From NCBI GenBank assembly GCA_022651245.1, contig JALCQM010000002.1, forward strand, positions 1-64,000: 64,000 nt of DNA. Direction: 5' to 3'. The position numbers and the translations under genes are program-made. Source of the DNA: Lactobacillus sp. GTDB taxonomy: Bacteria > Bacillota > Bacilli > Lactobacillales > Lactobacillaceae. Below, piece after piece: positions 13,162 to 62,494 of the stretch. Position 1 is the stretch's first letter; the number at the start of each line of letters is the position of its first letter. A model generated the notes under the pieces. The model made no database searches and was not told the origin of the DNA. It was given only the letters and a program-made list of their open reading frames with translations.

Positions 13162-14004
13162 CTAAAGTCGCGAGGAATCGCCTTTGGTGAACTGGTTCAA
13201 CATTTGCGGATCCCAGAATCTTTTGCCGCGGTAATAGCTGTCTAGTGCCAATGGGACTTTGTGGAACGTCCGGTAAGCCTGGTTGGCGACGATCTGGCGA
13301 AATTGCGTGTGGCGATAAGCTTCATCTAAAAAACGCTTAGTGTCGTTCGGTTCTGGGTGCCAGTCCGGGTGGTAGTTGCTGTACACTTTGACGTGCCGTG
13401 CATTAGTGACTAAGAAAGCAGGGGGCATCAGTTGATCGATTTGTGCTTGCGTTGCTGCCAAAATAGGCCGGAGATCATCGAGTAAATCGCGGTAATTGTT
13501 GATGAGCCGAGGTTCGTTTTTTTGAATGGCAAGGCGACCACGATTGAGCAGTGTGGCGATCGGAATTTCGTTTTCCACGTAATCAGCGAGCAGGGCCCTG
13601 AGTTTTTTATCGGTAGACTTGAGGATTGGGGTTGCTTGGGAGACGTGTTTGAGCCAACCTAGGAACACGTTGTTTAGCATCTGGACTAACCGCTTCTCTA
13701 AATGGCGCACCACTTGTTCATCCTTTTGCCTAACTTCCAGGTTGATTGCTTGTAATTTACCAGAGAGCTTAAGAATATCACCAATACTGACCGTGCCAGG
13801 ATATTTGAGAAAATCACCGTTGTGCTGGACCAGCAGCGTCCAAGCTGGCCAGTCTAAAGGGCGACCATGATTATCAAAATAGTAATACGCGCCTAATGTG
13901 ATGGTGTCGACGAGCTGATATTGCCCTGAGGGGAGGCGAATCCGCCGACTCTTGGCGGCAGCAACAATACCAGCAAAACGGAGCGTCTGAAAGTGATCGC
14001 GCAT
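13162..14004 (-). CDS. Hypothetical protein, 280 aa, divergent from the structured RNA
   Basis: I do not recognise this protein. It is soluble, without signal peptide or membrane segments, basic overall and rich in Leu, Gln, Arg and His. The N-terminal 60 residues (RRIRLPSGQYQLVDTITLG) look beta-rich, the middle (residues 90-200) is strongly helical with heptad-like leucines, and the C-terminus is aromatic (SNYHPDWHPEPND, then SYYRGKRFWDPQ). The ATG at 14004 follows AGGTTC-like bases (AATGGAGGTTCTTTT sense), a fair ribosome site. Its 5' region is AT-rich and is shared with the promoter of the structured RNA that runs the other way. A nucleic-acid-binding role is possible but unproven. Confidence 0.7.
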   Translation of the reverse strand: MRDHFQTLRFAGIVAAAKSRRIRLPSGQYQLVDTITLGAYYYFDNHGRPLDWPAWTLLVQHNGDFLKYPGTVSIGDILKLSGKLQAINLEVRQKDEQVVRHLEKRLVQMLNNVFLGWLKHVSQATPILKSTDKKLRALLADYVENEIPIATLLNRGRLAIQKNEPRLINNYRDLLDDLRPILAATQAQIDQLMPPAFLVTNARHVKVYSNYHPDWHPEPNDTKRFLDEAYRHTQFRQIVANQAYRTFHKVPLALDSYYRGKRFWDPQMLNQFTKGDSSRL

Positions 14005-14165
14005 AAAAGAACCTCCAATCTAATGATCAGTATTGATGGTGTCATTATAATGGGTCAATTTTAAAAAATCTAGTAATTGGTCTATTTATTTTAAAGCCTT
14101 TTTACCCAAAATATACTTAATTAGATGGGTATTGGTATATAAAAAAATAAATATAAAAGAAAGTG

Positions 14166-14194
14166 TTTACATTCATGTATGAGCGTGGTACACT
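14166..14194 (+). promoter_or_regulatory. Strong promoter of the structured RNA
   Basis: TTTACA at 14166-14171, exactly 17 bases, then TACACT at 14189-14194. The expected start is at about 14201 (A). It sits in an AT-rich spacer between the orphan gene and the RNA. Confidence 0.8.
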
Positions 14195-14200
14195 TTGGTC

Positions 14201-14629
14201 ACGTAATGCAACTGGGTATGATGGTGGCCACATCGTATGCTTTCCCAGTTGTAACAGTGGGGGTACCAGTCGATGATCCTTGTCGGCCTCCACACGCGCT
14301 AAGGGATAGATCCTGAAAATGGCCTAGAACTGATTGGGCACAGGCGAGACATCTGGTAGCATGACCCTCATGGCGGGACCAACCCGCGTGAGGCCGCTGT
14401 TATCCCAGTCCTGAGTGCAAACTCAGGCACCGTAACCACACCAATCGCGGGTTGGCAACCGCACCTCGATACTTGAGGAACTGCCCGGGACACGTTTTGG
14501 GGCAACCCGACGTGTCTTTGTTGTGCCTAGCGGCGTGGCGTCACGCCAAAGCCGAGCGGCAGCCTGCAGTTTTGGTGTCGCTTAGAACACAAAGAAGAGG
14601 GTAAGCCGAGTGGGGCTTACCCTCTATTT
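14201..14629 (+). ncRNA. Large structured RNA of unknown family, about 430 nt
   Basis: A stand-alone transcription unit with its own promoter and intrinsic terminator and no plausible reading frame. It is packed with helices: 14208-14216 with 14244-14252 (9 bp); 14257-14263 with 14287-14293 (7 bp); 14366-14377 with 14383-14393 (11 bp, one bulge); 14410-14416 with 14421-14427, capped by a GCAA (GNRA) tetraloop; 14447-14453 with 14457-14462; 14489-14495 with 14510-14516; 14532-14537 with 14542-14547 inside a long-range helix 14521-14532/14579-14592. It lacks the conserved sequences of RNase P RNA, tmRNA, SRP RNA and T-boxes. The next plus-strand gene is 1 kb away, so it is not a leader. Function unknown. 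Confidence 0.75.
14596..14629 (+). terminator. Terminator of the structured RNA
   Basis: Twelve-base stem AGAGGGTAAGCC / GGCTTACCCTCT followed by ATTTGTTT. It can also end the convergent lipoprotein transcript. Confidence 0.85.
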
Positions 14630-14650
14630 GTTTGCAGTTCGGGGTCGCAA

Positions 14651-15445
14651 TCAGTCTTCGTTAGCGATCAGGGCCAACAATTTGCCGCTAGAGGTGATCT
14701 GGTATTGCGCGGCGAGTTGGGTCATGTTGCTACCGGAGACGGGCTTGCGAAAGGCGATGGTCCAAGTGCCGTCTGTGCCTTTCGCACATTCGACTTGGTA
14801 GTTCGCTAGCGCGTAGGCGGTGCCGTCGTGCAAGTATTCGTGGTGATAATGGTTCCAGGCCCAGGTGATCGCCTTTTGGCGGGTCATGTTGGCCATGTCG
14901 GCGTTGCCGTCGAAGGTGGCGGCGGTATCTTTGTCTGTGCTCGTGGTTTCTTGATGCATGGCAGTTTGGTTGTCGATGGTGAGCAAGCTGACCATGCTTT
15001 GCAGCTTATCGGCCTTGGTTTGTTTGGCTAAGGCCGTGACCGTGGTTTGGGTGCCGGCAGCGGCGAACTTTGCCAGCGTTGTGGCTTGTTCAAGGTTGCC
15101 GAAAATAACCGTGTCGCCGTCGAGGTAAACCATGTGGTAGCCGCTTGTGCCACTGGGGAGCTGTAGTTGATATGCTTGCGCGGTTTTCGAGGCGTCGGTG
15201 ATCACTTTGGCGACCGGGTAGCGATACGCGGTCAACTGGAGGCGATTTTGCAAAATGTTCGGCACGTTGAGGCCTGAGTCTTGCATCGCCGGTGTCAAGG
15301 CAACTAAGGCGAGCCGTTGCTTGAGTGAAAGCTGCTGATCCTGGGCTGAAACGGTCACGGGTTGGCTGGTGTTAGTCGGTTGCCCCGTGGCGCTACAGCC
15401 TGTTAATAAGGCGAAGCTGACGATCGTGAGTGGGAGAAGACGCAT
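14651..15445 (-). CDS. Secreted lipoprotein of unknown function
   Basis: A 264-aa product with an N-terminal signal peptide and lipobox ALLTGC, so it should be anchored on the outer face of the membrane. After a Thr/Ser/Gln-rich linker (residues 20-45) the protein is globular and mixed alpha/beta; near the C-terminus lies a His/Trp-rich patch (AITWAWNHYHHEYLHDG). The start is the ATG whose complement is 15443-15445, with AAAGGAGG five bases before it; the longer frame to 15535 has no ribosome site. An extended -10 (TGGTATGAT) lies upstream on the minus strand. I do not recognise a named domain. Confidence 0.82.
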   Translation of the reverse strand: MRLLPLTIVSFALLTGCSATGQPTNTSQPVTVSAQDQQLSLKQRLALVALTPAMQDSGLNVPNILQNRLQLTAYRYPVAKVITDASKTAQAYQLQLPSGTSGYHMVYLDGDTVIFGNLEQATTLAKFAAAGTQTTVTALAKQTKADKLQSMVSLLTIDNQTAMHQETTSTDKDTAATFDGNADMANMTRQKAITWAWNHYHHEYLHDGTAYALANYQVECAKGTDGTWTIAFRKPVSGSNMTQLAAQYQITSSGKLLALIANED

Positions 15446-15582
15446 ACTCAGACCTCCTTTCGAATAGTTAGCAATATCATACCAGAATCTCATCAAAATA
15501 GCATAATAAAAACCTATTTTTGTTATGTAACCCATGAACAGGTGTCTTGTTAGTGTAGACGAGGCCTAAAAAAAGAAAATAA

Positions 15583-55820: not shown

Positions 55821-55940
55821 AGCGCGAGTAGATGCGGTTTTAGGCGGGTGGATAAGGCAGCGTGGCACGATACGGCGTCAGCCGCAGCGGGACGCGATGA
55901 CCTATATGCATTGCCGTTGCCTGGGGGAGCGCGTTTAACA
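55819..55940 (+). repeat. Family C structured repeat, copy C1
   Basis: About 122 bases beginning in the stop codon of the cysteine-binding protein. Boundaries AGAGCGCGAG and GCGCGTTTAA; inner CGGC-GTCA-GCCG hairpin; middle stem with A-TAAG / CCTA-T. Tandem with C2. Confidence 0.8.
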
Positions 55941-56063
55941 AAGCGCGAGCCATCGCGGTTTTAGGGGAACGTGTAAGACAGCGTGGCACGATGCGGCGAT
56001 AGCCGTAGCGGGACGCGATGGCTTATCCGCACCGCCGTTGGCTGGGGGAGCGCGTTTAGAACG
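55941..56063 (+). repeat. Family C structured repeat, copy C2
   Basis: Head-to-tail duplicate of C1 (shared GGTTTTAGG, CAGCGTGGCACGAT, GGGACGCGATG, GGGGGAGCGCGTTTA). Middle stem G-TAAG / CTTA-T, inner CGGC-GATA-GCCG. Confidence 0.82.
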
Positions 56064-59723: not shown

Positions 59724-59852
59724 TAGAGCGTGAGCCAGTGCGGGTTTAGGCTTGTGGTTAAGCTGGCCTGGGTGCGTTATGGCGACAGCCATAGCGTGAC
59801 GGGGACGGCTTAACCGCAAAGCCGATGCACTGGTGAACGCGTTTAGTCAGCG
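59724..59852 (+). repeat. Family C structured repeat, copy C3
   Basis: Single copy reaching into the stop codon of the minus-strand DUF624 gene (GCGTTTAGTCA). Middle stem GGT-TAAG / CTTA-ACC, inner TATGGC-GACA-GCCATA, showing pairing-preserving changes against C1, C2, C4 and C5. Confidence 0.8.
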
Positions 59853-62248: not shown

Positions 62249-62370
62249 AAAAACGCGTTCGCTGGCACACCGGTGGTGCGTCTAAGTCATCGCGCCGGCA
62301 AGCGGCTAACGCCACTCACCGCCACGCTGCCTTAGCCAACCACCTAAACCCGTGCCAGTTCACGCTCTGA
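62249..62370 (-). repeat. Family C structured repeat, copy C4
   Basis: Reverse-oriented copy inside the sugar operon. Middle stem C-TAAG / CTTA-G with outer GGTGG / CCACC. Its central 51 bases (62284-62334) are identical to those of C5 (62406-62456). Confidence 0.82.
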
Positions 62371-62371
62371 C

Positions 62372-62494
62372 TAAACGCGTTCGCCTCGGCACCGGCGTTG
62401 CGTGTAAGTCATCGCGCCGGCAAGCGGCTAACGCCACTCACCGCCACGCTGCCTTACACACACGCCTAAAAGCGCCGCGGCTCACGCTCTGACT
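62372..62494 (-). repeat. Family C structured repeat, copy C5
   Basis: Tandem neighbour of C4 in the same orientation. Middle stem GTG-TAAG / CTTA-CAC, outer GGCG / CGCC. Ends 18 bases before the permease start. Confidence 0.82.

Follow-up and report, generated by a model that had tools for sequence, protein, structure and literature searches.

A new family of large, structured and lineage-specific RNAs in Lacticaseibacillus with a candidate protein partner

Few classes of large structured RNA are known in bacteria, and few have a dedicated protein partner. Among the HEARO guide RNAs of the IscB-IsrB (OMEGA) systems, copies without the protein exist. The long RNA described from L. salivarius is presumably ROOL. 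ROOL and GOLLD are large ornate RNAs of unknown function, known from lactobacilli among others (PMC12286853, and PMC5643018 on the L. salivarius RNA), and both form homo-multimers (PMC12286853). OLE is a large structured bacterial RNA with a protein partner, OapA, and dimerizes through a loop with a switching palindrome; in PMC12286853 its L9.3 palindrome changes from GGCC to GAUC or AGCU, and such switching is used there to argue that OLE and GOLLD form symmetric kissing loops. The HEARO and other OMEGA guide RNAs are structured RNAs adjoining a protein gene, one example being 343 nt long (PMC12286853). Finally, in multi-copy genes that evolve in concert, such as rRNA, paralogues of one genome are closer to each other than to their positional orthologues (PMC6053082).

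The RNA described here resembles each of these in some respects. It shares with OLE the combination of a large structured RNA, a protein partner and a putative dimer loop with a switching palindrome, but it has no match in Rfam, its partner has a predicted OB fold whereas OapA is a membrane protein, and it occurs in many dispersed copies. Compared with ROOL and GOLLD it is shorter, likewise without an Rfam match, absent from the phage and plasmid records searched, and linked to a protein gene; its self-association, unlike theirs, is inferred from sequence. It is similar in length to the HEARO/OMEGA guide RNAs and also adjoins a protein gene, but again Rfam gives no match and no nuclease family was found in the partner.

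The locus lies in a window of 64,000 nucleotides, the whole stretch of DNA that was analysed, from a genome whose genus is Lacticaseibacillus. A preliminary description had proposed a stand-alone, densely structured RNA of about 430 nt (14160-14629), without a recognised family, between a near-consensus promoter and an intrinsic terminator. The features of the locus are as follows.

13162-14004, minus strand: partner protein gene, 280 aa, unclassified, head-to-head with the RNA
14007-14160, no strand assigned: intergenic leader between the diverging genes, conserved in A-type copies (blastn between copies, alignment and flanks)
14166-14171, plus strand: -35 box TTTACA, its position kept in the other copies read
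14189-14194, plus strand: -10 box TACACT after a 17 bp spacer; TATACT in B-type copies
14201-14526, plus strand: structured RNA core, its start placed from the promoter and its end where similarity between copies ends
14224-14231, plus strand: apical loop GTGGCCAC with the self-complementary core GGCC; GCGC or GTAC in other copies
14297-14299, plus strand: CGC, long-range partner of GUG in the 3' tail (14523-14525); columns 120-122 with 376-378 of alignment A3
14487-14518, plus strand: 3' hairpin with a GCAA (GNRA) loop in the window copy; helices 13 and 14 of A3
14517-14526, plus strand: conserved 3' tail UUUGUUGUGC, from the alignments; similar ends occur in other clades
14527-14625, plus strand: tail and end hairpin (14596-14625), in the window copy only and outside the conserved RNA, from the comparison of copies

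The promoter is as first described. The proposed dense structure is borne out by the fold of the plus strand from 14160 to 14640, at -201.4 kcal/mol versus -166.8 in shuffles (z -6.62; 0/100 shuffles as good). The RNA is thus real as a structure, but its full extent did not stand. Similarity between most copies stops at UUUGUUGUGC or a variant of it, and the 60 bases 3' of 14526 in the window copy have no match in the 12 own-genome copies compared; therefore the conserved RNA is placed at approximately 14201-14526. A long-range pair proposed between 14521-14532 and 14579-14592 is local to the window copy and not conserved, its downstream arm being unmatched in the other copies, and it would compete with the conserved tail pairing 14297-14299/14523-14525. 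The hairpin read as an intrinsic terminator is present at 14596-14625, but the U run after it, ATTTGTTTG, is weak; the hairpin lies outside the conserved RNA and may be the terminator of the convergent gene at 14651-15535. That gene, on the minus strand, has a lipoprotein-like start and matches no family above cut-off. No gene follows the RNA on its own strand, as had been noted, but the RNA is not isolated: a gene of a conserved family starts head-to-head with it at 14004.

The absence of a recognised family was upheld. No Rfam 15 covariance model reached its gathering score anywhere in the window, including those for OLE, ROOL, GOLLD, HEARO, group I and II introns, RNase P and 6S. Searches down to E 10 in 14000-14800, and down to E 1 in 11 loci of several clades, gave nothing credible on the RNA. 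The sole match in 14000-14800, a sub-threshold miRNA family on the end hairpin, was judged a chance match. T-box leader matches below gathering at L118:212-449 (minus strand) and L126:937-1181 (minus strand), and a Transposase-1 RNA match, also below gathering, at L070:3756-3809 (plus strand), lie in flanking DNA and off the RNA. Neither the RNA nor the partner protein matched the plasmid and phage records at the DNA or protein level. When the window RNA was compared by BLAST with 301 genomes of the family, it matched its own genome and gave two weak matches of approximately 30 bases. No published description of the RNA was found in the open literature searched, which is a part of the whole literature. 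We read the locus as a single member of a new RNA family, previously unlisted and lineage-specific, whose RNAs are large and structured, with lengths of approximately 330-400 nt.

The RNA does not stand alone in its genome. BLAST returned 14 own-genome matches of at least 246 bases including that of the window, the other 13 at 87-91% identity, together with at least four copies of a divergent type that first appeared as short end matches. Three types can be distinguished: A (window, L011, L014, L021, L023), B (L012, L013, L015-L020, L022) and C (L024-L027). Promoter-like boxes are found, by eye, at a common position in copies whose 5' end is present, with a poor -35 box in the C-type copy L027. 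L011 and L014 have approximately 600 bases in common at 90%, comprising leader, promoter, RNA and terminator, and their flanking genes are different; L021 shares the preserved part of this unit, and the tail with its strong terminator is common to all three at 97%. The divergent leader is also present in L014, which has no adjoining partner-protein gene. A non-systematic annotation of the flanking reading frames shows that they vary from copy to copy and are often convergent. A strict scan for a hairpin and T run within 200 bases found terminators in 7/12 own-genome copies, 0/6 copies of genome G302 and 17/50 clade-2 copies, versus 0.4, 0 and 1.0, respectively, in shuffles; the scan left the window's own end hairpin uncounted. 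Just 5' of the promoter, five B-type copies (L013, L015, L018-L020) carry two to three near-copies of TGTAAATGTT, which might be a regulator site.

Multiple copies are also found elsewhere in this genus, which includes food species: 14 long copies in the window genome stand beside approximately 35 in each of two other species. In those two (G305 and G216), the covariance model R1 of the counterpart RNA has 35 and 36 matches, respectively, with 39 BLAST match rows each. R1 matched none of the other 28 genus genomes, the window genome included; it was built on one clade-2 domain, and its blindness to other clades is no evidence that they lack an RNA. G302 has six copies of at least 367 bases at 93-100% and several partial or divergent ones. 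A third kind of RNA has 9, 9 and 8 matches of at least 200 bases in G198, G179 and G303, and a fourth has four and three matches of at least 360 bases in G011 and G156. Because the covariance model stays within its clade, common descent of the RNAs across clades is suggested by the shared protein neighbour and the similar 3' end only. The genomes are drafts, and contigs are broken inside some copies.

The preliminary description had suggested looking for covariation among homologues, and it is present in two clades, with two-sided changes above both shuffled and slid controls. For clade 2 we aligned 50 of the 67 copies extracted, omitting similar and truncated ones (alignment A4). Its 16 helices comprise 91 pairs, of which 46 have two-sided changes, and 93.8% of cells are paired; the 419 two-sided cells compare with 141 in shuffles (0/500 reaching that count) and with 58-90 in slid controls. 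When column pairs were tested by script, a structural pair ranked at the top (columns 14 and 28, z 15), and half of the top 20 pairs were structural, the other 10 not. For clade 1, alignment A3 holds 22 RNAs. The own genome contributes 12 of its 14 long copies, the omitted L021 and L023 being cut by contig ends; six RNAs come from G302, and two C-type copies each from G000 and G302. Here 15 of 67 pairs have two-sided changes, 97.5% of cells are paired, and 69 cells are two-sided versus 22.8 in shuffles (0/500) and 0-9 when slid; two of five covariation measures were not clearly above shuffles (31/500 and 257/500). The 23 RNAs of clade 3, analysed by script and without controls, give 100 pairs, 33 of them two-sided, with 95.8% paired. 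In both A3 and A4 the 3' tail pairs with a short internal segment; those pairs have no two-sided changes (in A3, columns 120-122/376-378, 95.5% of cells are paired with zero such changes). The RNA fold is under selection. With no match in Rfam and compensatory changes above controls in two clades, the suggestion of an undescribed structured RNA in a lactobacillus is supported.

An apical loop near the 5' end carries a self-complementary core that changes from copy to copy. In clade 1 it is GGCC, GCGC or GTAC in 22/22 RNAs (A3 column 47), and in the counterpart loop of clade 2 it is GCGC or GGCC in 46/50 (A4 column 20), the remaining four being the non-palindromic GGCT. A clade-3 hairpin has GATC or AGCT cores within 8-base palindromes in 20/23 RNAs, and the loop is absent in the other three; the outer bases of these palindromes can pair within a molecule, and only the core four bases bear on a dimer. 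Among 283 scorable four-base windows in A3, the apical loop is the only fully palindromic one with three kinds. One other four-base stretch, at column 92 and likewise in a hairpin loop, is palindromic throughout but has two kinds; two further stretches are 91% palindromic with more than one tetramer. In A4, 2/314 windows are at least 90% palindromic with more than one tetramer; the apical loop has two palindrome kinds, and the next stretch with two kinds is 56% palindromic. By analogy with OLE and GOLLD, the switching palindrome suggests a kissing loop, through which the RNA would associate with itself.

The head-to-head arrangement of RNA and 280-aa protein gene is found in the window, L011 and L023. 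Across the genus, the partner protein is present in 11 of 30 genomes. Profile searches found 8 carriers among 301 family genomes (8/15 in the genus, 0/286 outside) and 4 among 395 order genomes (4/7 in the genus, 0/388 outside). Linkage between the RNA gene and the protein gene holds across species: a recognisable RNA runs divergently from 25 of the 32 protein matches in the genus. For five of the 25 the RNA is partial, three being cut by a contig end (G000:C53, G000:C11, G156:C15) and two matching in pieces (G156:C27, G303:C11). The other seven (G302:C6, G302:C1, G000:C72 with two, G107:C29, G107:C32 and G277:C1) have no RNA detectable by blastn. By eye, three of those seven (L079, L063, L075) show a GC-rich stretch behind a promoter-like sequence with a strong hairpin near its end, followed in L079 and L075 by UUUG and GUG. 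Upstream of many homologues the DNA is likewise conserved, in divergent orientation. In G107, a different tandem repeat (GTGCGTACCGTACCTTTAGG...) lies beyond the RNA-like region of L063. Behind the first gene, L011 (5164-5913, plus strand) and L023 (1241-1990, plus strand) carry a second one, for a shorter protein related to the partner protein. The protein gene stands head-to-head beside a minority of RNA copies, and this neighbourhood suggests that the RNA family belongs with a new family of OB-fold-like proteins.

No Pfam, NCBIfam or PHROGs family matched the partner protein above cut-off, all Pfam matches being below it. The same holds for 22 family members in Pfam and NCBIfam, where no HNH or RuvC nuclease domain was seen, and PHROGs and NCBIfam gave no matches to the family at E 0.01. 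No transposase, integrase, reverse transcriptase or nuclease family was found in the protein. PADLOC gave no match for the window protein; matches of single family members to PrrC, a methyltransferase and PDC-M27A (E 0.004-0.006) were judged chance. A PDB sequence search returned two matches only (E 0.87-0.88), and Foldseek against PDB and BFVD returned none at E 0.001. AlphaFold models of the window protein (pLDDT 89.3, pTM 0.83) and of a member from clade 3 that shares 15% identity with it (pLDDT 84.7, pTM 0.79) agree in topology, with four strands leading into a four-helix bundle and then a fifth strand and C-terminal helices. We read the predicted fold as an OB barrel with the bundle inserted between strands 4 and 5. 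In a structural search, in which all matches of the protein were below Z 8, the barrel matched mainly OB-fold proteins (PriB, SSB and anticodon-binding domains, at Z approximately 5.4-6.8). Its predicted five-stranded barrel may resemble those of SSB, PriB and other OB-fold proteins; the inserted bundle sets it apart from these, and no sequence relationship was found. The bundle resembles many helical bundles, the best being LemA (Z 7.8); another match is 8ub8_C, an accessory protein of a DGR (Z 6.7, rmsd 4.2, 94 aligned), in an arrangement that is common. On these models, the protein looks able to bind nucleic acid. Between the window protein and two own-genome paralogues dN is 0.164 and 0.163 with dS near 2 (dN/dS approximately 0.08-0.09), and between those two paralogues dN is 0.038 and dS 0.289 (dN/dS 0.13); dS was computable for three of six protein pairs. 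These values point to purifying selection on the partner protein.

At least 23 copies of G305 lie at the same site as a G216 copy, 15 by both flanks and 8 by one. Six weak or conflicting pairs among 29 flank pairs were omitted (L118/L119, L132/L119, L132/L123, L132/L149, L172/L127 and L174/L162). L132/L119 matches on both sides, but weakly and beside paralogous protein genes; this pair and L174/L162, computed later, follow the same rule as the 23. An empty site was sought for L136 only and was not found, since its positional counterpart is present in G216, split over two contig ends. At all 23 shared sites, each of the two RNAs has a paralogue within its genome (identity 0.77-0.96 in G305, 0.84-0.99 in G216) that is closer to it than the positional counterpart (0.59-0.83). 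For one copy, L170, the closest RNA of all lies in the other species (0.844), but it is not the positional counterpart. The RNAs form six subfamilies, and the two species have different ones at 15/23 sites; the eight sites in agreement are near the random expectation of 6.35 (p 0.23). Shared sites have a mean identity of 0.699, versus 0.683 in random pairings, and 3.1% of the random pairings reach the higher value. Two of the 15 pairs (L177/L167 and L184/L165) have promoter and upstream flank in common and may simply be diverged orthologues. In L169/L121, promoter and RNA both differ and the upstream flank is conserved. An incompatibility test indicates recombination between copies in G000 (0.301 vs 0.447, 0/2000) and G305 (0.233 vs 0.328, 0/2000); for G216, with 17 copies and 34 informative sites, its result was negative. 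Copies within a genome change in concert. As in multi-copy genes such as rRNA, own-genome paralogues are closer than positional orthologues; unlike there, many shared sites hold different subfamilies, and the protein family is found in one genus only. Growth of subfamilies through the adjoining protein gene was considered and dropped on reasoning, the distribution looking like random draws by copy number. With site memory nearly lost between two species, one may ask how RNA genes come to be copied from one fixed chromosomal site to another.

The reading that we consider probable, if only just, is that of a self-associating RNA acting in trans with the partner protein. The RNAs would be transcribed as separate units, and each would fold compactly, its domain closed where the 3' tail pairs with an internal segment. 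The self-complementary apical loop would join two or more such molecules, the OB-fold protein would bind the RNA, and the assembly would act in trans, with many gene copies supplying the dose. Strong covariation and the dimer signature make tests of structure, binding and deletion practical. This reading is not fully exclusive of the main alternative, a selfish RNA gene, which we find unlikely yet deserving of serious consideration. Protein-linked copies would then be autonomous and RNA-only copies satellites, RNA and protein promoting the copying of the unit, often into sites that already hold a relative. The many RNA-only and few protein-linked copies fit this, as do the copying of a whole unit, leader to terminator, into different flanks in L011 and L014 (in part L021), the different subfamilies at 15/23 shared sites with agreement close to random, and the changed promoter and RNA beside a conserved flank in L169/L121. 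However, most of the sites compared are common to the two species, which implies little recent hopping there; no terminal repeats or target duplications stood out by eye in the alignments read; and no family of transposases, nucleases or reverse transcriptases was seen in the protein. Possible orthology between subfamilies 1 and 2 would also lower the 15, and ordinary gene conversion or duplication could account for part of the pattern. A self-propagating RNA gene, in which the kissing-loop dimer and OB-fold protein would direct copying of the unit and replace relatives at fixed sites, seems to us quite unlikely. If true, sites would be inherited and the subfamily at each overwritten, and the RNA would be a homing-like mobile element without a recognisable transposase, integrase or reverse transcriptase.

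Three further explanations carry less weight. RNAs unrecognisable between clades, the patchy protein (11/30 genus genomes) and the concerted change of copies would suit an RNA-protein pair for host defence or phage response, maintained in numerous copies and evolving rapidly under conflict; given a window protein without a PADLOC match, three weak matches of single family members, no PHROGs match and nothing in phage or plasmid records, we regard this as distinctly improbable. That the dispersed RNA genes and hairpin repeats serve as, or with, nucleoid anchors in organising the chromosome is more doubtful still, indeed very improbable: intergenic copies are dispersed at conserved sites, a second dispersed structured repeat follows some RNAs and the barrel matches single-strand binding proteins, but a large single-strand fold that is under constraint and has a promoter of its own is more than a DNA site would need. 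Scarcely credible is a cis-acting leader, riboswitch or attenuator, since downstream frames differ in orientation and sequence between copies and the window copy has no gene to control, even though some copies lie 5' of a same-strand gene (in L013, a start codon preceded by a good ribosome site follows after approximately 100 bases).

A second dispersed element was seen in the window at 55821-56057 (plus strand), 59727-59844 (plus strand) and 62251-62488 (minus strand), and also in L024-L026 and L189-L195. Its units of approximately 116 bases, single or in tandem with a period of approximately 122-124, each form one long hairpin; 25 of 42 predicted pairs have two-sided changes (alignment A7, 24 of 27 units, without a shuffled control), and Rfam gave no match to the element in the window. 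Searched by BLAST with a C-type end and its array, the own genome returned 67 match rows. The hairpin units start at the RNA 3' tail in six full-length G302 copies (L185, L187, L189, L191, L193 and L195), and at or within approximately 20 bases of it in the four own-genome C-type copies (L024-L027). Because the units begin at or near the tail, a transcript could run into them.
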